Assembly (NCBI GenBank): GCA_944385035.1
Contig: CALWVV010000008.1
Span: forward strand, 40,453 to 104,452
DNA from: an uncultured Oscillospiraceae bacterium
GTDB lineage: Bacteria > Bacillota > Clostridia > Oscillospirales > Oscillospiraceae
Reading direction: 5' to 3'
DNA: 64,000 nucleotides
Both the position numbers and the translations under genes were made by a program. Position 1 is the stretch's first letter; each line of letters begins with the position of its first letter. The notes under the pieces were generated by a model that had not been told where the DNA came from, ran no database searches, and saw only the letters and a program-made list of their open reading frames with translations. Of the stretch, positions 1 to 17,568 are shown in pieces.

Positions 1-46
1 GCTGATTTGCAGAGATTTTGTGATGATAACCGGCATTTCCCCCTGC

Positions 47-52
47 TATAAT
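47..52 (+). promoter_or_regulatory. Candidate -10 box of the PstS-like operon
   Basis: A perfect TATAAT lies 66 bp upstream of the first lipoprotein start. No convincing -35 hexamer sits 16-18 bp before it, so the promoter may depend on an activator, or the match may be chance. Only 46 bp of upstream sequence is visible. Confidence 0.4.
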
Positions 53-118
53 AAGCTTACCCGGTGGGAACAGATTCCCACGGGCCGATCCTTTTTTCCA
101 CCTGACAGGAGGAACTTT

Positions 119-1057
119 ATGATGAAACGTGTCTTATCTTGCATAGCCGCCGCCCTTTCCCTGGCGGTGGTCCTTACCGCCTGTTCCCCCAAAACTGCCC
201 AGGGAGGCTCCGCCTCCTCCGCTCCCGCGTCCAGCGCTTCCCAGGCCCCCTTTGTGTTTACCAGGGAAAACCTGCCCCGGCTGGACGGCTCCACCTCCAC
301 CGTCCCCCTGGCCAAGGCCATGTGCGCCGTTTTGTTGGGGGAGGCGCCCGAGCAGGTGGCCGATCTGGTCAGCTTCTCCCGCACCACCCAGTCCTACCGC
401 AATCTCATGGCCGGAGAGCGGGACCTGGTGCTGGCGGCAGAGCCGGAGGGCGAGGTGCTGGCCCAGCTCCAGGAGGAGGGGCACTGGCTCTACACCCCCT
501 TTGCCACGGACGCCCTGGTCTTTGTGGTCAACGAGGACAACCCGGTGGACAACCTGACCTCTGAGCAGGTGCGGGACATCTACACCGGGGAGATCACCAA
601 CTGGAAAGAGGTGGGCGGCAGCAGCCTGGACATCGTCCCCTTCCAGCGCAACCAGGGCGCGGGCAGCCAGACCATGTTTGAAAAGCTGGTCATGGACGGC
701 CAAAGCCCCATGGAAGCCCCCGAGGCCTGGGTGCCCGACTCCATGCAGGGGCTCATCGATGCGGTGCGGCAGTATGACAACACCCCCTCCGCCATCGGCT
801 TTACCGTCTATTACTACGCCAACGATATGGAGATGGCACGGGGGCTAAAGGTTTTGTCCATTGACGGCGTCACCCCCAACGCCCAGAGCATCCAGGACGG
901 CAGCTATCCCTTCCTGAACCCCTACTATGTAGCCATTGACCAGAACACCCCCTCCGACAGTCCCACCCGGATCCTCTACGACTGGGTGCTGGGCGCCGAG
1001 GGCCAGAAGTTGGCAGCCATGGAGGGCTATGTGCCCGTTATGGAAGGAGTGGAGTAG
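119..1057 (+). CDS. PstS-like phosphate/anion-binding lipoprotein
   Basis: A 312-residue extracytoplasmic binding protein of the PstS type, predicted to capture phosphate or a similar oxyanion at the outer face of the membrane. The N-terminus has a lysine/arginine, a hydrophobic stretch and a lipobox ending at Cys22, followed by a Ser/Ala-rich linker. DGSTS at residues 56-60 and RNQGAGSQT near residue 178 match the phosphate-contacting loops of PstS. The start is the first of two adjacent ATGs, 5 bases after AGGAGG; an upstream in-frame start at 20 has no such signal. It is followed at once by a second lipoprotein gene. No pstC, pstA or pstB lies in the window, so it may be an orphan receptor or work with a permease encoded elsewhere. 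Confidence 0.85.
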   Translation: MMKRVLSCIAAALSLAVVLTACSPKTAQGGSASSAPASSASQAPFVFTRENLPRLDGSTSTVPLAKAMCAVLLGEAPEQVADLVSFSRTTQSYRNLMAGERDLVLAAEPEGEVLAQLQEEGHWLYTPFATDALVFVVNEDNPVDNLTSEQVRDIYTGEITNWKEVGGSSLDIVPFQRNQGAGSQTMFEKLVMDGQSPMEAPEAWVPDSMQGLIDAVRQYDNTPSAIGFTVYYYANDMEMARGLKVLSIDGVTPNAQSIQDGSYPFLNPYYVAIDQNTPSDSPTRILYDWVLGAEGQKLAAMEGYVPVMEGVE

Positions 1058-4544: not shown

Positions 4545-4979
4545 ATGATTGCCATTGCTTCCGATCACGGAGGATATATGCTCAAGGAGCACATCAAAGC
4601 CTATCTGGCCGCGAAGGGCATTACCTGCGAGGACTTCGGCACCAACAGTACCGACAGCTGTGACTACCCCGATTTTGCCAAGCCCGCCGCCGAGGCGGTA
4701 GCCAGCGGCCAGTGCGAACGGGGCATCGTCATCTGTACCACCGGCATCGGCATCTCCATCTCCGCCAACAAGGTCAAGGGCATCCGCTGCGCCCTGTGCG
4801 GAGATGTGCTGTCCGCGGAGATGACCCGCCGGCACAACGACGCCAATATGCTGGCCATGGGCGCGGGGATCGTGGGCCCCATGCTGGCCGAGCGCATTGT
4901 GGACACCTTTTTGTCCACTGAATTTGAGGGAGGCCGCCACGCCCGGCGGGTAGCCAAGATGATGGAGATTGAATCATAA
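4545..4979 (+). CDS. rpiB: Ribose-5-phosphate isomerase B
   Basis: A 144-residue RpiB/LacAB-family sugar-phosphate isomerase interconverting ribose-5-phosphate and ribulose-5-phosphate in the cytosol. It shows the N-terminal SDHGG motif (Asp7, His8), the active-site Cys64 in ICTTGIGISI and the phosphate-binding RRHNDAN segment around His97. The ATG follows AGGAGGAAACTGAT. It stands alone between two terminators. The residue after Cys64 is Thr rather than the commoner Gly, so activity on allose-6-phosphate or another sugar phosphate cannot be excluded. Confidence 0.93.
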   Translation: MIAIASDHGGYMLKEHIKAYLAAKGITCEDFGTNSTDSCDYPDFAKPAAEAVASGQCERGIVICTTGIGISISANKVKGIRCALCGDVLSAEMTRRHNDANMLAMGAGIVGPMLAERIVDTFLSTEFEGGRHARRVAKMMEIES

Positions 4980-5004
4980 TCCTCCTCCCCCTTCACCCCC
5001 AGCA

Positions 5005-5104
5005 CGACAAAGGGCCCTGACCATTCGGTCAGGGCCCTTTGCCTGTGTGTGTTGTAAAAGGAGAGGGAGAAATGGGAGATACAGTTTGTAGCTTTGCTAC
5101 AAGC
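5005..5104 (-). ncRNA. Candidate Pho-controlled small RNA A (leftward)
   Basis: Read on the minus strand, three 11-bp-spaced Pho-like repeats (5160-5133) are followed after 20 bp by TATCAT (5112-5107). A transcript starting near 5104-5100 would have a 5' stem-loop (TTGTAGC-AAA-GCTACAA), a C/U-rich stretch containing CTCCCTCTCCTTTT, the sequence TACAACACACACAGGCAAA, and a 15-bp hairpin (5041-5008). The C/U stretch is complementary to AAAGGAG-type ribosome binding sites. The same order of parts recurs in copy B next door, which is the main support. The terminator's U tract is short (UUUG). No protein-coding reading is conserved between copies. A transcript has not been shown. Confidence 0.5.
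5008..5041. terminator. Bidirectional terminator hairpin (rpiB / small RNA A)
   Basis: A perfect 15-bp stem with a 4-base loop (5008-5022 and 5027-5041) lies 29 bases after rpiB. It is symmetrical, with only three T residues on each side, so it could end rpiB on the plus strand and the candidate small RNA on the minus strand. Termination efficiency is uncertain because the U tracts are short. Confidence 0.65.
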
Positions 5105-5132
5105 ATATGATAAATGAAATTTAAGGCAAAAT

Positions 5133-5160
5133 CGTGACTTTCTCGTGAACTTTTTGTTAA
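5133..5160 (-). promoter_or_regulatory. Pho-box-like triple repeat, copy A
   Basis: On the minus strand the hexamers TTAACA (5160-5155), TTCACG (5149-5144) and GTCACG (5138-5133) recur with exact 11-bp spacing. This is the layout of PhoP/PhoB binding sites (TT-A/C-ACA half sites every 11 bp). A -10-like TATCAT follows after 20 bp on the same strand. Confidence 0.55.
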
Positions 5161-5176
5161 CGTTGTGCCGCCAGCT

Positions 5177-5270
5177 GCGACAAAAAGCCCCGGCTGCCTG
5201 ACCGGGGCTTTTTGCCTGTGTGTTGTAAAGGAGAGAGAGAATAGAGATATGTCTTGTTCACTTGGCTACA
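5177..5270 (-). ncRNA. Candidate Pho-controlled small RNA B (leftward)
   Basis: This is the second copy of the element. On the minus strand, TTCACA, TTCATT and GTCATG repeat every 11 bp (5329-5302), then 20 bp, then TATGAT (5281-5276). A transcript from about 5270 would contain TCTCTATTCTCTCTCTCCTT, TACAACACACAGGCAAA and a 13-bp GC-rich hairpin followed by TTTTTG, a good intrinsic terminator. The CTCTCTCCTTT segment is a near-perfect anti-Shine-Dalgarno sequence, which suggests regulation of translation by pairing to ribosome binding sites. The architecture matches copy A exactly in spacing. Expression and targets are inference. Confidence 0.55.
5181..5214. terminator. Terminator hairpin of small RNA B
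   Basis: A 13-bp stem (5181-5193 with 5202-5214) and 8-base loop CTGCCTGA. On the minus strand the stem ends in TTTTTG. No plus-strand gene lies just upstream that needs it, which is one reason to read the unit leftward. Confidence 0.7.
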
Positions 5271-5301
5271 ATGACATCATAGACTAAGAATAAGGCAAAA
5301 C

Positions 5302-5329
5302 CATGACTATAAAATGAACTTTTTGTGAA
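5302..5329 (-). promoter_or_regulatory. Pho-box-like triple repeat, copy B
   Basis: TTCACA (5329-5324), TTCATT (5318-5313) and GTCATG (5307-5302) on the minus strand keep a strict 11-bp period and precede TATGAT by 20 bp, as in copy A. Because it lies about 30 bp upstream of the CDF -35 box it could also act on the rightward gene. Confidence 0.55.
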
Positions 5330-5358
5330 TGTTTCCGGGGTGGACGGCGGATTCCCGC

Positions 5359-5388
5359 TTGACTTGCCTCAGGGCCTCGTGCCATAAT
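5359..5388 (+). promoter_or_regulatory. Promoter of the CDF transporter gene
   Basis: TTGACT (5359-5364) and CATAAT (5383-5388) are 18 bp apart. The predicted start leaves a leader of about 45 bases before the GTG at 5439. Confidence 0.6.
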
Positions 5389-5438
5389 AATGGTTAATTC
5401 TTTGCTCACAATTTTTCTTTGCGAGGTGGACGTTTCCC

Positions 5439-6632
5439 GTGAACAGGATTCTTCAGCTTTGCCTGCGTGGGGAGGACCCCAATTCCCCCCAGGTCCGCCG
5501 CCGGTGCGGAACAATCGCCGGCGGAATGGGTATTTTTCTCAACCTGCTGTTATCCGCCGGCAAGCTGCTGGCAGGGCTGCTCACCGCCTCGGTGGCCATG
5601 ACCGCGGACGGCCTCAACAACCTCTCCGATGCAGCCACCTCCGTGGTCACCCTCATTGGATTTCGCCTGGCCGGACAGGAGGCGGACGCAGAGCACCCCT
5701 TTGGCCACGGAAGAATGGAATATGTAGCCGGGCTGATCGTCTCCCTGGCCATTCTCCTGATGGGGGTGGAGGTGGGCCGCTCCGCCGTGGACTCTCTGCT
5801 CCACGGCTCCACGCCCGAATTTTCTCCCCTGGCGGTGGGCATCCTGTGTGCCGCCATCCTGGTAAAGTTCTGGATGTTCTGGTTTAACCGGGCTCTGGGG
5901 CAAACTATCGGCTCGACGGCCATGCAGGCCACCGCCGCCGACTCCCTCTCTGACACGCTCTCCACCGGGGTGGTCCTTGTGTCCACCCTGCTGTGCCACT
6001 TCTTCCAGCTCCATGTGGATGGCCTGGCCGGCCTTTTGGTGTGCGCCTTCATTTTAAAAACCGGCTGGGAGGCCGCTCGGGACACTCTGGACCCCCTTCT
6101 GGGCCGGCCTATGGACCCGGAGCTGGCCGCCGACATTGACAAGCTGGTGCTGGGCCACGACCACATTCTGGGCATCCACGACCTGGTCTATCACGACTAC
6201 GGCCCCGGCCGGGCCATGATGTCCTTCCACGCGGAGGTCCCCGCCGACGGCGACCTGCTGGAGATCCACGACATCATCGACCACATTGAGCGGGAATTGA
6301 AGGCCAAGCACCATATTGAGACGGTGATTCATATGGACCCCGTGGTCTGCGACGACAGCACTTCTGCCCTGCGTGCCCAGGTGGATGCCCTTGCCAAGAA
6401 GCTGGACCCGGCGCTGTCCACCCACGATTTCCGGATGACGGCCGGCCCCATCCATACCAATATCATCTTTGATGTGGTGGTCCCCTATGGCTTCCGCCTG
6501 ACGGACCACCAGGTATGCGAGGAACTCTCCCAGGCCATCCACGCCCTCTCCCCCCGGTACTACGCGGTGATCCAGGTGGACCACTCCTATGTGGACGGAA
6601 GAGGAGACCAAAAAGCCTCCTCCACCCCGTAA
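5439..6632 (+). CDS. CDF-family divalent metal exporter
   Basis: A 397-residue cation diffusion facilitator, predicted to pump Zn, Mn, Fe or a related divalent metal out across the membrane against protons. The membrane domain carries the metal-site sequences DGLNNLSD (Asp57, Asp64) in helix 2 and DSLSD (Asp168, Asp172) in helix 5, with HPFGHGRMEY between helices 2 and 3. A long C-terminal cytosolic region follows from about residue 210; it is larger than the usual CTD and holds HDLVYHDYGPGR and a second ferredoxin-like segment. The DxxxD helix-5 site is more typical of the Mn/Fe-type subgroup than of HxxxD zinc exporters. The GTG start follows GAGGTGG. Metal specificity is inferred. Confidence 0.9.
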   Translation: MNRILQLCLRGEDPNSPQVRRRCGTIAGGMGIFLNLLLSAGKLLAGLLTASVAMTADGLNNLSDAATSVVTLIGFRLAGQEADAEHPFGHGRMEYVAGLIVSLAILLMGVEVGRSAVDSLLHGSTPEFSPLAVGILCAAILVKFWMFWFNRALGQTIGSTAMQATAADSLSDTLSTGVVLVSTLLCHFFQLHVDGLAGLLVCAFILKTGWEAARDTLDPLLGRPMDPELAADIDKLVLGHDHILGIHDLVYHDYGPGRAMMSFHAEVPADGDLLEIHDIIDHIERELKAKHHIETVIHMDPVVCDDSTSALRAQVDALAKKLDPALSTHDFRMTAGPIHTNIIFDVVVPYGFRLTDHQVCEELSQAIHALSPRYYAVIQVDHSYVDGRGDQKASSTP

Positions 6633-6649
6633 TTCACAAATTATTCACC
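6633..6649 (+). promoter_or_regulatory. Pho-box-like repeat before the two-component system
   Basis: TTCACA-N5-TTCACC gives two half sites 11 bp apart. A perfect TATAAT (6669-6674) follows 19 bp downstream and the -35 position has no SigA hexamer (CACCCA), as expected for an activator-dependent promoter. This is almost the same layout as the small RNA promoters at 5.1-5.3 kb, and suggests autoregulation by the adjacent response regulator. Confidence 0.65.
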
Positions 6650-6721
6650 CAAGACGTTCCTTTTGCGGTATAATAATTGCGGTATCATAAACTATAAATT
6701 ACTTAGGATGGGGTGACACTT

Positions 6722-7414
6722 ATGCCCAAAAAGGTTTTGATCGTGGAAGACGACGGAAATATCGCAGAGCTGCTCCACCTCTATTTAGAGAAGGAGGGCT
6801 TTGAGACCCAGGTAGCCAAGGACGGAGGACGGGGAGTGGAGCTGTTTCGCTCCTTTCAGCCCGATCTGGTGCTGCTGGACATCATGCTGCCCATTATGGA
6901 CGGCTGGTCTGTACTGAAAAAGATCCGGGAAACGGAGAAGACCCCCGTCATCATGCTCACCGCCAAGGGCCAGACCGAGGACAAGGTGGCCGGTCTGGAA
7001 CAGGGGGCGGACGACTATATTGTAAAACCCTTTGAAATGAAGGAAGTCCTGGCCCGGATCCATGCGGTGCTGCGCAGAACCGGCGCCGAGGAGGAGCCTG
7101 GAGAGAAAAAGCTCTCCTTTGACAAGCTGGTCATCAACCTGGACTCCTATGAGCTGCTGGTAGACAACCAGCGGGTGGACACCCCGCCCAAGGAGCTGGA
7201 GCTGCTGTTCCATCTGGCCTCCTCTCCCAACCGGGTATTTACCCGCAACCAGCTTCTGGACGAGGTCTGGGGCTTTGACTACTTCGGCGACAGCCGCACC
7301 GTAGACGTGCACATCAAGCGCCTGCGGGAGAAGCTGGAAAATGTCAGCGACCAGTGGCGGCTGAAAACCGTCTGGGGCGTGGGCTATAAGTTTGAGGTGG
7401 GCCCTGCCTCTTGA
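6722..7414 (+). CDS. OmpR/PhoP-family response regulator
   Basis: A 230-residue response regulator. The receiver domain has the acidic pair Asp10/Asp11, the phosphoacceptor Asp53 in LLDIMLP, and a conserved TAK near residue 81; the C-terminal half is a winged-helix DNA-binding domain (RTVDVHIKRLREKLE). Proteins of this family bind tandem repeats with an 11-bp period, and such a repeat lies just upstream. The ATG at 6722 is preferred to the in-frame GTG at 6713 because AGGATGGGG lies 8 bases before it. It is co-transcribed with the histidine kinase 39 bases downstream. I infer PhoP-like phosphate control from the promoter; WalR- or VanR-like roles remain possible. Confidence 0.9.
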   Translation: MPKKVLIVEDDGNIAELLHLYLEKEGFETQVAKDGGRGVELFRSFQPDLVLLDIMLPIMDGWSVLKKIRETEKTPVIMLTAKGQTEDKVAGLEQGADDYIVKPFEMKEVLARIHAVLRRTGAEEEPGEKKLSFDKLVINLDSYELLVDNQRVDTPPKELELLFHLASSPNRVFTRNQLLDEVWGFDYFGDSRTVDVHIKRLREKLENVSDQWRLKTVWGVGYKFEVGPAS

Positions 7415-7453: not shown

Positions 7454-8890
7454 TTGCGGTCTCTCTATAAGCGTCAGCTGACCATGATGGTGGGCATTAT
7501 GATCCTGTCCTTTACGCTCCTGTCCGCCGCTTTTATGCTGCTGTCCTACCGGTACCTTATTTCAGAAAAGCGGGAGTCCATGGAGCGCAACGCAGGGTAT
7601 ATTGCCGGCTTTACCGCCCTGTATTACAAGGAATACCGGGACATTCAGGACGAGCTTTACAGCAACTATGTGGCCAATATCGCCCTGATCTCCGACTCCT
7701 TTGTCATCGTCGCCGGACCGGACGGAGAAATCCTCTACGCCACGGACGGCTCCAAAATTTATGATTATAAAAATGCCGTTCTGCCCGCCTCCGTCACTAA
7801 CCAAGTGCTGAGCCATGGGACCTATGCTGGTCTGACCAGCCTGGAAGGAATTTATCCCGAGCGCCGGTACACCGCCGGATTGCCCATCAACATTTCCGTT
7901 TTGGGGCAGACGGTCAACCAGGGCCTGGTCCTGGTCTCCGCCGACGCCTCCAACCTCTCTCAGATGTGGTCGGCCACCGCCACCATTTTCTTCTTTTCCG
8001 CCGTGGTGGTGCTGCTCATCTCTGTGGTGGCCAGTACCATTACCTCCGCCCACCAGGCCCGGCCCCTGAACGAAATGGCAGAGGCTGCCCGAAAATTTGG
8101 GCAGGGAGAGTTTGACGTGCGGGTCACCAGCTACGAGGGGCGCTGCGACGAGATCAGCACCCTGGCCGAGGCCTTTAACGCCATGGCCAACTCCCTGGAG
8201 AAGGTGGAGACCCAGCGTGCAGAATTTATCGCCAACATCTCCCACGAGCTGAAAACCCCCATGACCACCATCTCCGGCTTTGCCGAGGGAATTCTGGACG
8301 GAACCATTCCCCCCGAGCGGGAGCGGGAATCCCTTCAGATCGTGGTGTCCGAGACCCGCCGGCTCTCCCGCCTGGTACGGCGGATGCTGGATCTGTCCCG
8401 GCTCAACGCCCTGGCGGAGAATTCCATCACCGCCCAGGAGACCTTCGATCTGACCGAGACCATGTCTCAGGTGCTCATCAGCCTGGAGAGCAAGATTACC
8501 GGCCGCAACCTGGATGTGGACGTACAGATGCCCCAAGAAAAGCTGATGGTATGGGGCGACCCCGACTCGGTCACCCAGGTATGCTATAACCTGCTGGACA
8601 ACGCGGCCAAATTTGCCGCGCCGGGCACTACCATCACCGTCCAGATCACGAAGAAGGACGGCAAGGCTGTCACCTGTATCCGCAATCTGGGGGCCACCAT
8701 TCCCCCGGAGGAGCTCCCCCTGCTTTTTGACCGGTTCCACAAGGCGGACTACTCCCGCTCCATGGACCGGGAGGGGGTTGGTTTGGGGTTGTACATTGTG
8801 AAAACGATTTTGGGCAACCTGAAAGAGACCATCAATGTCACCAGCGAGGATGGGGTGACCCAGTTCACCTTTACACTGACGCTGGCATAA
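7454..8890 (+). CDS. Sensor histidine kinase (PhoR-like)
   Basis: A 478-residue membrane kinase that should phosphorylate the regulator encoded just before it. It has a transmembrane helix at about 8-33, an extracytoplasmic sensor of about 140 residues, a second helix at about 176-198, a HAMP domain, a HisKA domain with the phospho-acceptor His264 in FIANISHELKTPM, and a HATPase domain with NLLDNAAKF (N box) and GVGLGLYIV (G box). No PAS domain is evident between HAMP and HisKA, unlike WalK and B. subtilis PhoR. Translation starts at TTG, 5-6 bases after AAGGAGGTGAG. Confidence 0.9.
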   Translation: MRSLYKRQLTMMVGIMILSFTLLSAAFMLLSYRYLISEKRESMERNAGYIAGFTALYYKEYRDIQDELYSNYVANIALISDSFVIVAGPDGEILYATDGSKIYDYKNAVLPASVTNQVLSHGTYAGLTSLEGIYPERRYTAGLPINISVLGQTVNQGLVLVSADASNLSQMWSATATIFFFSAVVVLLISVVASTITSAHQARPLNEMAEAARKFGQGEFDVRVTSYEGRCDEISTLAEAFNAMANSLEKVETQRAEFIANISHELKTPMTTISGFAEGILDGTIPPERERESLQIVVSETRRLSRLVRRMLDLSRLNALAENSITAQETFDLTETMSQVLISLESKITGRNLDVDVQMPQEKLMVWGDPDSVTQVCYNLLDNAAKFAAPGTTITVQITKKDGKAVTCIRNLGATIPPEELPLLFDRFHKADYSRSMDREGVGLGLYIVKTILGNLKETINVTSEDGVTQFTFTLTLA

Positions 8891-8936
8891 TCACCGTTGC
8901 TTGATCTTACGGCCCTGGGCCACTGGGAGGAAATGT

Positions 8937-10190
8937 ATGGAGCATCATCATCAAAACGATCTGTGGCAGGGCGGTCCCTGGGAACAGCCCTCCCCGGTTT
9001 TTTCTCCCCCTCCGCCGGTACAAATTCCCCTTCCCCGCCAAAAGACGTCCCGCCCCGTCCTTCGGACCCGGCGCCGGGGGCCCCGGTGGCCGTGGGTCAC
9101 AGGGCTTGTGGTATTGGTTTTGTCCCTGTGTGCGGTAACCATTTTTCTGGACCAGTATTTCTCTCCCGCCTCCCTGTTTTCCTCGCAGCCCTTTTCTGAG
9201 GAGAATTACCGGCGGGAGGAGACCCAGAACACCAACCAGCCCCCGGATATTCCCCAGGCTGAGACGGGCACCGGCTTTACCCTCACTCTGAATGAGAGTC
9301 ATGGCGAGGCTCTGTCCCTCTCCCAGGTCCACAGTAAGGCCATTGAGTCCCTGGTCTCTATCGAGGCCTACTCCGACGTCTACTTCAGCTCCGGCAGCGG
9401 GGTGATCCTCTCCTCCGACGGCTACATCGTGACCAACGCCCATGTGGTGGCCGGAGCCAACGATGTGCGCGTCCAGCTGAGTGACAACCGCATCTTCCCC
9501 GCCAGCCTGGTGGGGTTCAGCGCCCAGGAGGATCTGGCCGTGCTGAAAATTGATGTGGACGGCCTGCCTGCGGCGGAATTCGGCGACTCCAACGCTCTGG
9601 TATGCGGAGAGTCTGTATCCGCCTTAGGCGACTCTCTGGGGTATCGAGGCACCTTTACCGACGGGATCATTTCCGCTCTGGACCGGGAGATGACCATGGA
9701 GGACGGCTCCACCATGGTGCTCATCCAAACCAGCGCCGCCATCAACTTCGGCAATTCCGGCGGCCCTCTGCTCAACCAATACGGCCAGGTGGTGGGCATC
9801 AACACCATCAAGATCATTGCCGATGACGGCTCGGCCGAGTCCCTGGGCTTTGCCATCCCGTCTACCCGTGTGAAATACGTGACCGACCACCTGATCGCCG
9901 GAGAGGAGATCCGCACCGCCGCCTTTGGCTTTACGGTCTCCATTGTCCAGCTCCCCGAAGGCGGGCTGGAGCTTCTGGATGTGGACCCCACCAGCGATGC
10001 CTATGCCCAGGGCCTGCGGGCTGAGGATATTCTGGTGGCCGCCAACGGGCAGTCCATCTCCAGCACACAAGATCTGGTGCGGCTCAAGCAAACGCTGGGG
10101 CCCGGAGACCAGGTGGAGCTGACCTATCTGCGGGAGGGCGTTTCCCATACCATATGGGTGGAACTGATGGATGCGGAGCTCTTTTCCTAA
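8937..10190 (+). CDS. htrA: HtrA/DegP-type membrane serine protease
   Basis: A 417-residue S1C protease expected to degrade or refold damaged proteins on the outer membrane face. It starts with an His-rich, Pro-rich cytosolic segment, has one transmembrane helix at about 51-72, a trypsin-like domain with the triad His169, Asp199 and Ser274 (GNSGGP), and one C-terminal PDZ domain. The ATG at 8937 is preferred over 8901 because GGGAGG lies 6 bases upstream. It begins 46 bases after the histidine kinase and has no promoter of its own that I can see, so it is probably the third gene of the two-component operon. Confidence 0.92.
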   Translation: MEHHHQNDLWQGGPWEQPSPVFSPPPPVQIPLPRQKTSRPVLRTRRRGPRWPWVTGLVVLVLSLCAVTIFLDQYFSPASLFSSQPFSEENYRREETQNTNQPPDIPQAETGTGFTLTLNESHGEALSLSQVHSKAIESLVSIEAYSDVYFSSGSGVILSSDGYIVTNAHVVAGANDVRVQLSDNRIFPASLVGFSAQEDLAVLKIDVDGLPAAEFGDSNALVCGESVSALGDSLGYRGTFTDGIISALDREMTMEDGSTMVLIQTSAAINFGNSGGPLLNQYGQVVGINTIKIIADDGSAESLGFAIPSTRVKYVTDHLIAGEEIRTAAFGFTVSIVQLPEGGLELLDVDPTSDAYAQGLRAEDILVAANGQSISSTQDLVRLKQTLGPGDQVELTYLREGVSHTIWVELMDAELFS

Positions 10191-14966: not shown

Positions 14967-16811
14967 TTATGCACTTTTTGCCATCCGGCGGCAGGCCAGC
15001 GCCGTGGCCAGGAAGTAGCCTCCATAGACCACCACCAGCACCAGGGCGGTCACCGCGCTGCTGGAGACGCTGTCCACCTTTCCCGCCGTGGCGATCAGGT
15101 CGTTGGCCGCCTTCATGCCCACCACACTGTGGACCAGCGCCAGGAGCAGGGGGAGCAGAAAGGCCAAGGCCACCTGCTGGGTGGCCGACCGGGCCACCAG
15201 CGTTTCCTCCGCGCCCAGCCGGCGCAGCAGGGCATACCGCCCTGCGTTGTCCGCCCCCTGGCTCAGCTGCTGCAGGGCCAGCACCGCCGCCGCAGCCAGC
15301 AGGAAGGTAAAGCCCAGATAGAGCCCCAGGAACAACGCCAGCATTTTGCTGCCCATCAGATCCTGGTAAATGTTAAGCCGGGTGGTGATCCAAGAGGCAA
15401 AGGAAACATCCAGAGACTGGATGGTGTCCATGAGCTCCTCTTCCGTCGCTTCCGGATCACCCGCATAGTCCGCCGACCAGATCTGGCGGCAGGGAGAGAG
15501 CTTCTGGGCCATCTCATCGGGGATGAGTACATAGCTCAGTCCCAGGCTGCCGGTGGTGAGCTCCTCCTCCAGCTGGTCCGCCCGGTGGGGCAGCAGCCCG
15601 CTGTAGGCCGGCTTCCCCTGCCGCAGCCGCAGGGCATCGTAGTCGGACACCCGCAGGGCCGCGCTGGCGTTTTCAAAGCCAGTCACCTCAGGGTCGTTAT
15701 AATAAAACACGGTGCTGTAGCTCCAGGAGAGCTTCTCTTTGGTATCAAAGCCCGCATCGCCCAGCACCTGGTCAACATCCACCAGCTCCTCCTCTCCGGA
15801 GAGGTTCTGGACTGTGATGTCAAAGGGGGCCTGGTAGCTGCTTTGGGAGGCAATGGTGTTGTTGAGGCCCACTGAGCTTGCGGTAATGCCGATAGCCAGC
15901 AGCAGGAGAATACATACCACCGTCTGGGCCAGGTAGGTGGTGTGCACCTTGCTCAGCCACTGGCGGAGGGTAAACAGGTTCAGGTTCTTGTAGTAGAGGC
16001 TGGGCCGCCCCTGGACCAGCTTCATCACAAAGCCGGACAGGGAGCGGAAAATCAAAAGCGTTCCCACCGTCCCCAGGGCCAGCATAGGGATGCAGATGGG
16101 CAGCACCGCCACGGCAATGGCCATGCCAAAGGTGAGCAGGGTGGCGTAGGCCGCCGCCAGGCAGAGAATCCCCGCCGCCAGCTGGATCACCGCCGGAGTG
16201 AGGGAGCGCACCTTCAGCACCTCATTTTTCCGCTGGCCGTAGATAAGGTCTATGAGCCGGCTCCGGGACACCCGCACCCCGCTGAACACCATCACCAGCA
16301 GAAAAATAAGGCCAAAGGAGAGCAGCGTTTTCCCCGCCGCCTGGATGGAAAAGTTCAGGGCCAGCATCCCCGCCAGATCAATCTGGAACATGGACAGGGT
16401 CAGGGCGGACAGGCCAAAGGAGGCCAGCACCCCCAGCGCCAGCCCGGCCCCCAGGGACACAAGGCCGATGACCCCGGTCTCCAGAAACAGCAGCCTGGAC
16501 ACCTGCCCCTGGGACAGGCCCAGCAGCAGATAGGTCCCCAGCTCCCGCTTCCTCCGGCGCAGGAGAAAGCGGTTGGCGTAGAGGATGAGACAGGCCAGCA
16601 CCACCGCCACAAACACGGAGAACACATCCACCAGAATCTGGATGACCGCTACCGCCGGGTGCTCCCGCTGAGCCAGATAGGCCATGGCCCCCTGCCCCTT
16701 GACGGCGTTGAAGGTATAAAACAGGCATACCCCGAAGGTGAGGGTGAGAAAATAGACCCCATAGTCCCGGAAGGACCGGCGCACATTGCGTATGGCCAGT
16801 TTAGAGAACAT
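14967..16811 (-). CDS. Bce-type (FtsX fold) ABC transporter permease
   Basis: A 614-residue permease with the layout of BceB/VraG-like proteins: one N-terminal helix, three helices at about 55-160, further helices at 190-300, a large extracellular domain at about 310-510, and three C-terminal helices. Such transporters remove peptide antibiotics from their lipid targets and often sense them for a two-component system. NVRRSFRDYGVYFLTLTFGVCLFYTFNA is the usual start. It overlaps the ATPase gene by 11 bases and is translationally coupled to it. No BceRS-like pair lies beside it, which is unusual for the family; the only pair in the window is 6 kb away and looks phosphate-related. Confidence 0.9.
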   Translation of the reverse strand: MFSKLAIRNVRRSFRDYGVYFLTLTFGVCLFYTFNAVKGQGAMAYLAQREHPAVAVIQILVDVFSVFVAVVLACLILYANRFLLRRRKRELGTYLLLGLSQGQVSRLLFLETGVIGLVSLGAGLALGVLASFGLSALTLSMFQIDLAGMLALNFSIQAAGKTLLSFGLIFLLVMVFSGVRVSRSRLIDLIYGQRKNEVLKVRSLTPAVIQLAAGILCLAAAYATLLTFGMAIAVAVLPICIPMLALGTVGTLLIFRSLSGFVMKLVQGRPSLYYKNLNLFTLRQWLSKVHTTYLAQTVVCILLLLAIGITASSVGLNNTIASQSSYQAPFDITVQNLSGEEELVDVDQVLGDAGFDTKEKLSWSYSTVFYYNDPEVTGFENASAALRVSDYDALRLRQGKPAYSGLLPHRADQLEEELTTGSLGLSYVLIPDEMAQKLSPCRQIWSADYAGDPEATEEELMDTIQSLDVSFASWITTRLNIYQDLMGSKMLALFLGLYLGFTFLLAAAAVLALQQLSQGADNAGRYALLRRLGAEETLVARSATQQVALAFLLPLLLALVHSVVGMKAANDLIATAGKVDSVSSSAVTALVLVVVYGGYFLATALACRRMAKSA

Positions 16812-17568
16812 CTGCCATCTCTCCTCCCATCTCCGTCACCACCCGGATGATCTTTTGGAAGAAGGCCCGGCGGTCATCCCCGCCGCGCTTCAGCTCCAAA
16901 AAGATCTGCCCGTCCCGGAGAAACACCACTCGCCCGCAGCAGCTGGCGGTAAAGGCGTCGTGGGTGACCATAAGGATGGTGGCCCCCAGGTCCCGGTTCA
17001 AGGTCTCCAGGCAGTTCAGAAGCAGCCGGGCCGCTTTGGAGTCCAGTGCCCCGGTGGGCTCGTCGGCCAACACCAGGGCCGGGTGGGTCACCATGGCCCG
17101 TGCGGCAGCGCAGCGCTGCTGCTGGCCTCCCGACATCTCATAGGGGTATTTCTCCAGGCAGTTTTCGATCCCCAGCAGCCCGGCCATCTCCCGCACCCGG
17201 CCGGGGATCTGCCCCGCCGGGGCCCCGGTGATGGAGAGGGCCAGAGCAATGTTTTCTCCCGCGGTGAGGGTGTCCAGCAGGTTGCAGTCCTGAAAAATAA
17301 AGCCCAGCCGCTCCCGGCGGAATTTGGCCAGCTCCTTGCCCTTCAGGCCGGTGAGCTGCCTGCCGTCAATGATGATGGACCCGGACGTGGGGCGGTCGAT
17401 GGTGGACACACAGTTGAGCAGGGTGGTCTTTCCAGACCCCGAAGGCCCCATGACCCCCACAAATTCTCCTGCCTCCAAAGACAGGGACACCCCGTCCAGG
17501 GCACGGGTCACCGCCCCGCCCCGTCCGTAGATTTTCTTCAAATCGGTTACCGCTAATATTTCCTCCAT
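16801..17568 (-). CDS. Bce-type ABC transporter ATP-binding protein
   Basis: A 255-residue ATPase of the MacB/LolD/BceA group that powers the permease encoded next. It has Walker A GPSGSGKTT, the Q-loop IFQDCNLLDTLTAGEN, the signature YEMSGGQQQR, Walker [14 protein letters not shown] and the H-loop His in MVTHD. The start at 17568 is chosen because AAGGAGGA lies 6 bases before it; an in-frame ATG at 17592 lacks such a signal. A conserved last segment (KRGGDDRRAFFQKIIRVVTEMGGE) extends beyond the core. Confidence 0.93.
   Translation of the reverse strand: MEEILAVTDLKKIYGRGGAVTRALDGVSLSLEAGEFVGVMGPSGSGKTTLLNCVSTIDRPTSGSIIIDGRQLTGLKGKELAKFRRERLGFIFQDCNLLDTLTAGENIALALSITGAPAGQIPGRVREMAGLLGIENCLEKYPYEMSGGQQQRCAAARAMVTHPALVLADEPTGALDSKAARLLLNCLETLNRDLGATILMVTHDAFTASCCGRVVFLRDGQIFLELKRGGDDRRAFFQKIIRVVTEMGGEMADVL

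Follow-up and report, generated by a model that had tools for sequence, protein, structure and literature searches.

A widespread family of sibling small RNAs without an Rfam entry, recognised here by sequence comparison, is represented by two tandem copies in the window (the whole 64,000-nucleotide stretch of Oscillospiraceae DNA that was analysed). These siblings are probably anti-Shine-Dalgarno sRNAs that answer to an envelope-type two-component system, in the manner of LhrC under LisRK and of the csRNAs under CiaRH. Their regulator is most likely the neighbouring MtrA/WalR-like response regulator, which is encoded together with HtrA. Comparison of genomes brings out the family itself, its box and spacing, the covariation of its hairpin, and its linkage to and co-occurrence with the regulator.

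Two tandem copies in the window

Inspection of the sequence places two tandem copies, A and B, on the minus strand, with the common architecture and at the positions that the sequence-only reading had given them. In each copy, three half sites with an 11-bp period are followed by a -10 box lying 48 bp from the box start, and then by a C/U tract, a linker and a hairpin. The exact 11-bp period and the interval of exactly 20 bp between box and -10 box, both claimed in that reading, hold for A and B alike. A repeat search aligns the copies over 73 nt at 73% identity, with a spacing of 169.

In copy A, the putative regulator box (TTAACA-N5-TTCACG-N5-GTCACG) occupies positions 5133..5160 and the -10 box (TATCAT) positions 5107..5112. 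The predicted sRNA A is 98 nt long (5003..5100, with a predicted 5′ end). It begins with a small 5′ hairpin, GUAGC/GCUAC (5088..5100), which is seen in the fold and present in many type-A copies; continues with the C/U tract UAUCUCCCAUUUCUCCCUCUCCUUUU (5056..5081), the most conserved part of the RNA in the alignment and unpaired in the fold; and closes with a terminator-type hairpin (5006..5043). Copy B, also on the minus strand, has its putative box (TTCACA-N5-TTCATT-N5-GTCATG) at 5302..5329, its -10 box (TATGAT) at 5276..5281, a predicted sRNA of 94 nt at 5176..5269 whose 5′ end is placed from the -10 box, an anti-Shine-Dalgarno-like C/U tract delimited by the alignment at 5227..5249, and a terminator-type hairpin at 5179..5216. 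Boxes and -10 boxes were assigned from the sequence and from the consensus of 107 copies, and the hairpins from repeat comparison, alignment and covariation. Covariance-model matches reach 104.3 bits for A and 84.2 bits for B, the window itself being in the model, and the fold z-scores are -8.5 and -5.3, respectively. The linker had been described as shared: it is present in both copies, and ACACA is found in each, but the full linkers are not identical, being TACAACACACACAGG in A and TACAACACACAGG in B.

The RNA strand runs convergently into the 3′ end of rpiB and has no sense gene downstream, so that a leader or riboswitch reading was rejected. Upstream and divergent of the sRNAs stand genes for a cation diffusion facilitator (CDF) transporter, then a response regulator, a kinase and an HtrA-type protease. 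A phage origin was likewise rejected, because the sole match to a phage record spans rpiB and not the sRNAs. That record (MT835937.1) is an unannotated 15-kb 'Bacteriophage sp.' entry from faeces, and its rpiB-like positions 5911-6220 are 68% identical to window positions 4632-4941.

Conservation of promoter and RNA

A blast search gave 119 unique copies, 12 of which were removed beforehand because they were on the wrong strand, consisted of the hairpin only, had no box or were truncated. The triple half-site pattern, allowing up to four mismatches, is found in all 107 copies kept, absence of the box having been one ground for exclusion. The distance from box start to -10 box is 48 bp in 92 of the 107, the other 15 having no assigned 48-bp spacing, and the promoter consensus reads TTTACAAAAAGTTCAY-N6-GTCAYGATTTTGCCKTA...TATGATAA. 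Fixed spacing and a regulator-type box are thus conserved in relatives, as had been anticipated. Two of the 92 copies were too short for trimming, leaving 90 trimmed RNA parts, and the alignment comprises 75 of these; the 15 excluded are 4 from outside the genus and 11 others, mostly near-duplicates.

Among the 75 aligned copies, the C/U tract and the ACAACACAC linker form a near-invariant block, and the GC-rich hairpin that had been noted after the tract shows compensatory changes, with both sides altered and the pair kept, at all 16 of its pairs. The terminator loops are short and variable, and a clear U-run is missing from some hairpins. By this comparison the sRNA pair belongs to a real family, with spacing and covariation far beyond chance. 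The copies fall mostly into two subtypes: A (TCTCCCATTTCTCCCTCTCC; 67 of 107) and B (TATCTCCTTTCTCTCTCC-like; 27), with 13 unclassified. Because there are mostly two subtypes, and because 18 of 28 tandem sets have the order B then A, the duplication appears to be an old one whose two forms have both been retained.

No Rfam family matched at its gathering threshold anywhere in the window, and a relaxed search (E <= 1) of positions 4950-5420 gave sub-threshold matches to other families only; membership in a known RNA family was rejected on this ground.

Distribution in the genus and family

A DNA search at E <= 0.1 found matches in 59 of 64 genus genomes, and a covariance model of the RNA alone gave at least 45 bits in 56. 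Matches below 45 bits were counted only when the box was present, and G163 and G165 were also accepted because a box stands in front of the match. The result is 58 sRNA-bearing genomes of 64, with 111 copies, one to three per sRNA-bearing genome and two in 45 of the 58. Conservation in relatives, for which the sequence-only reading had named a covariance-model search as a check, is supported. Thirteen weak or borderline loci were inspected (L340-L347 and L376-L380), and of these only G163, G164 (45.0 bits) and G165 were accepted; for G160, G162 and G167, which have weak matches, absence is a matter of score alone. The raw covariance-model tally of 63 of 64 genomes is an upper bound. A weak match in the genome's own DNA (G000:C3:152904) has no box.

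Beyond the genus, the covariance model matched 226 of 400 family genomes at E <= 0.01, an upper bound because plain terminators are among the weak matches. With the RNA-only model, relatives come to light in other genera as well, and in 17 of the 20 best loci the best box-like sequence stands at the expected place, 55-96 nt upstream of the match, in a stretch that lies outside the model. In these 17 the box matrix scores lie between 4 and 49 of 56.7. Twelve have their best -10 box at +48, four at +59 or +60, and one at +43. As for the other three, L245 has no box, the best box of L250 lies elsewhere, and the box of L244 is that of a second copy. The tract drifts in sequence in other genera and stays rich in C/U motifs of the CCUCC/CUCUCC type.

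The adjacent regulator

The regulator lies on the plus strand beyond the CDF gene (5439..6632; TIGR01297 above cut-off), a neighbour that is kept between sRNA and regulator in many relatives. A two-half-site box, TTCACAAATTATTCAC (6633..6648), and a -10 box, TATAAT (6669..6674), 36 bp from the box start, were recognised in an upstream scan. These are followed by genes for an OmpR-family response regulator (6713..7414), assigned as MtrA/WalR-like by profile and structure matches, and, from domain and profile matches, a histidine kinase with a HAMP domain (7454..8890) and an HtrA/DegP-type serine protease with a PDZ domain (8901..10190). An ortholog of the regulator is found in 60 of the 64 genus genomes, a count that includes two genes cut at contig ends (G196 and G198). 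Among NCBIfam models the regulator scores best with MtrA (243.6 bits), then with YycF (228.6) and PhoB (227.1). It stays below the curated cut-offs (243.6 of 300 for MtrA, 228.6 of 340 for YycF), a test that is strict for this clade because the genome's own PhoB is also below its cut-off (231.3 of 296.2). The nearest solved structures are MtrA (2gwr, the best) and RegX3.

A scan of 180 nt upstream of the regulator gene finds a TTYACAAATTATTCAC-type box in its own promoter in 29 of 30 loci, and 9 of 10 further loci have it as well, which makes 38 of 40; the two loci without it begin near a contig end and lack upstream DNA. Among 4000 random 180-nt stretches from the own genome, only 5 score as high as the weakest of these boxes. 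In the window, the gap between the last half site and the -10 box is 25 bp in the regulator promoter and 26 bp in those of the sRNAs. TTYACANNNNNTTCAY has 150 occurrences in 12 genomes, versus 24 for the reversed pattern, a roughly sixfold excess that suggests a wider regulon. The weakest excess (10 versus 5) is that of G189, a genome with neither the regulator nor an accepted sRNA. The genes behind eight other box sites have no clear common theme.

Of the 64 genus genomes, 57 carry both sRNA and regulator, 1 the sRNA only, 3 the regulator only and 3 neither (p = 0.0018); the regulator is thus present in 57 of 58 sRNA-bearing versus 3 of 6 sRNA-free genomes. G196 and G198 are counted here as regulator-positive, and the genomes are related by descent and so not independent, which makes co-occurrence weak when taken alone. 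The genome with sRNA and no regulator found is G202 (94% complete); the regulator with its own box and no accepted sRNA occurs in G159, G161 and G162; and both are missing from G160, G167 and G189. In G159, G161 and G162 (L348, L349 and L350), which are small-genome relatives, the loci inspected contain no boxed sRNA. In 45 of the 57 genomes that have both, at least one sRNA copy is no more than 6 kb away from the regulator. Outside the genus, sRNA and regulator (86% identity) are immediate divergent neighbours in L248 (G027), with no CDF gene between them, and in L252 a CDF gene stands beside the sRNA.

The C/U tract and its possible targets

The claim that the C/U tract is complementary to ribosome binding sites agrees with the sequence: the tract contains CUCCUUU, the complement of AAAGGAG. 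In type A it is the reverse complement of AAAAGGAGAGGGAGAAATGGGAGATA, that is, of a ribosome binding site and a start codon; type B has no AUG complement. Folding leaves the tract of RNA A unpaired; that of B is partly paired in the lowest-energy structure and not in the centroid. Over the 66 of 75 aligned copies with a delimitable tract, the mean unpaired probability is 0.79, with values of at least 0.8 in 39 and below 0.8 in 27.

Targets were predicted with 22 sources from the own genome (479 of 2524 kb) and a home-made gene caller that favours Shine-Dalgarno starts. The mean predicted pairing energy at 376 start regions is -14.5 kcal/mol for tract A, versus -11.8 in coding stretches, and -12.6 versus -9.5 kcal/mol for tract B. 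Shuffled versions of tract A give a mean of -13.3 at start regions (sd 0.7, lowest -14.9), so that the excess of the real tract A is modest; the corresponding values for tract B are -11.7, 0.6 and -12.9, versus the real -12.6. The best predicted target of tract A among the 376 is the start of an FtsX-like ABC permease gene at window position 16811 (-29.4 kcal/mol). This target was found in 2 of 16 stretches from relatives, and the pairing is kept in both (-28.9 and -25.4). The permease and an ATPase form a pair at 14970-17568 on the minus strand. We regard anti-Shine-Dalgarno action as a plausible hypothesis.

A separate observation concerns L376 (G189:C45:9854-9879), a 26-nt match to tract and linker with no box and 12.3 bits. 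Its opposite strand, AAAGGAGAGATGATCTATG, resembles a gene start region, and it shows the length that such complementarity to a likely ribosome binding site can have.

Alternative explanations

The sequence-only reading had attributed the sRNAs to phosphate starvation and had called the operon 1.3 kb away PhoPR-like, with a matching box. The box exists, near position 6640; the operon is not the genome's PhoPR, and phosphate control was not borne out. The genome's own pstSCAB-phoU-phoB-phoR operon is on another contig than the window (C1), and its regulator scores best with PhoB (231.3 bits; MtrA 199.5), also below the curated cut-offs; because both regulators fall below, ranking rather than cut-off separates the window regulator from PhoB. 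A homologue of PstS-like phosphate-binding proteins, below the family cut-off, is encoded at window positions 20-1057, outside that operon. It is quite improbable that the sRNAs belong to the Pho regulon, with pst-linked PhoB binding their boxes under phosphate starvation. The PhoP consensus of B. subtilis is of the TTNACA-N5-TTNACA type, which the sRNA box resembles, and the genome's own pst promoter also has TTTACG/TTAACA repeats at 11 bp. This repeat, read in the L188 pst promoter, is a different one, however, and in nine phoU regions no sequence scores above 8.0 with the 28-nt matrix of the three-half-site sRNA box, whose maximum is 43.4; the gene layout was read in L188 only, and L196 may end before the pst promoter. 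The two-half-site pattern occurs once in eight of these regions, about 8 kb from phoU (G154:C1:1094596). A close form of PhoB (at least 74% identity) is found in 25 of 58 sRNA-bearing versus 1 of 6 sRNA-free genomes (p = 0.39). When 14 further genomes with a divergent PhoB-like protein (48-59%) are included, the counts become 39 of 58 versus 1 of 6 (p = 0.024), a co-occurrence that favours PhoB and makes the contrast with it weaker. Still, neither form is recognisable in 19 of the 58 sRNA-bearing genomes, of which six (G171, G193, G197, G200, G202 and G209) are at least 90% complete, and G189 has a pst-linked PhoB (79%) with neither the regulator nor an accepted sRNA. The presence of the sRNA follows the adjacent regulator better than it follows PhoB. 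On the box, gene-content and family-ranking tests we judged phosphate control unlikely, the neighbouring operon being classed by these comparisons as an MtrA/WalR-like system and not PhoPR. The box may look like a Pho box because MtrA boxes are similar direct repeats and phoA and phoP are among the targets of a Streptomyces MtrA. In excerpts of the published accounts, the boxes of M. tuberculosis are GTCACAgcg-like direct repeats (PMC4285127), whereas those of Streptomyces are GTAACC-N5-GTAACC, and Streptomyces MtrA also targets phoA and phoP, so that cross-talk is conceivable (PMC12323332).

It is also improbable that the sRNAs answer to a different OmpR-family regulator whose box is similar, the linkage to the neighbour being inherited synteny only. 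Such a circuit would accommodate the 3 to 19 proteins per genus genome that match the regulator at E <= 1e-40, and the location of sRNA and regulator on different contigs in 11 of the 57 genomes and far apart in G150. It sits less well with the closely similar box in the regulator's own promoter and with the joint absence of regulator and sRNA from three genomes. A different doubt concerns the tract, which could be a protein site, the sRNAs then titrating a protein such as Hfq or being stable by-products. Hfq is encoded in 61 of the 64 genus genomes, tract and ACA linker are conserved as a single block, and the real tracts are only weakly more specific for start regions than shuffled ones, all of which would suit this explanation. 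We nevertheless find it unlikely, because in other genera the tract drifts and yet keeps its CCUCC/CUCUCC-type motifs, which is what pairing with ribosome binding sites would lead one to expect, and because two analogues of similar layout act by pairing, according to excerpts of the reports on them (PMC4132741, PMC4507080).

The proposed circuit and its relation to known systems

In the circuit that we favour, control by the neighbouring regulator, transcription, regulator binding, signal, repression and targets are all proposed steps. The MtrA/WalR-like regulator, encoded 1.3 kb away with its kinase and the HtrA protease, would bind the direct repeats and activate sigma-70-type promoters in which the box replaces the -35 region, and the same regulator would control its own operon. 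In each RNA of about 95 nt, the C/U tract would lie between a variable 5′ part and the GC-rich terminator hairpin and would stay largely single-stranded. The tract would then pair with Shine-Dalgarno regions and lower the translation of some mRNAs when the signal is on, the signal being probably envelope-related.

LhrC has an Rfam entry; the RNAs described here resemble it in having sibling copies with one type of response-regulator box (a putative box, in 107 copies), and differ in that no Rfam family matches them at threshold. In excerpts of two reports, LhrC requires LisR and binds the Shine-Dalgarno region of lapB through CU-rich sites (PMC4132741, PMC5880928). The likeness to LhrC1-5 and Rli22 of L. 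monocytogenes, as described there, extends to multicopy siblings, activation by a response regulator (LisRK; here a prediction), CU-rich pairing with Shine-Dalgarno sequences (here likewise a prediction) and a 3′ terminator; LhrC has three CU-rich sites, including one in the terminator loop (PMC4132741, PMC5880928), whereas here one tract precedes the hairpin. Also unlike LhrC, the present genes are linked to a regulator-kinase-HtrA operon and have a promoter with a three-half-site 11-bp box.

The csRNAs, which repress comC under CiaRH, are comparable in that several similar RNAs of 87-151 nt per genome in streptococci have a response-regulator box and a terminator, as given in excerpts of PMC8186281 and PMC4507080. 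The same excerpts describe complementarity to the ribosome binding site and AUG, a property that type A shares in full, type B having no AUG complement. Unlike the csRNAs, the present copies are often in tandem beside the regulator. In streptococci HtrA is CiaR-regulated, and the CiaR box is TTTAAG-N5-TTTAAG; the box here, TTYACA-N5-TTCAY-N6-GTCAY, with TTTACA-N5-TTCAY in the consensus of the copies, is not of that type. RoxS/RsaE is a further Firmicute sRNA with C-rich seeds and two-component control, as here, and differs from the present family in regulator, structure and copy number.

With MtrA/WalR-type cell-wall regulators the present regulator shares its best model (MtrA), its best structure (2gwr) and direct-repeat boxes; it differs in scoring below every curated cut-off and in its kinase and HtrA neighbours. 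Excerpts of the MtrA literature report no sRNA output of such a layout (PMC4285127, PMC12323332). A search of the open-access literature found no trans-acting sRNA under a two-component system for Oscillospiraceae, and none similar for clostridia.

A bolder reading, which we regard as doubtful, is that this is a core envelope-type two-component system of Oscillospiraceae whose main conserved output is the duplicated anti-Shine-Dalgarno sRNA pair, that this pair slows translation initiation broadly instead of acting on a few targets, and that the same design arose independently in Listeria, streptococci and Oscillospiraceae.

Finally, we note what the proposed circuit would mean if true. Oscillospiraceae are common gut bacteria, and in them an RNA present across the family would have a named candidate regulator and a defined box. 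The RNAs would add to the cases in which sibling CU-rich sRNAs are under the control of a response regulator, and would offer an entry into the regulon of a conserved kinase-regulator-HtrA system.
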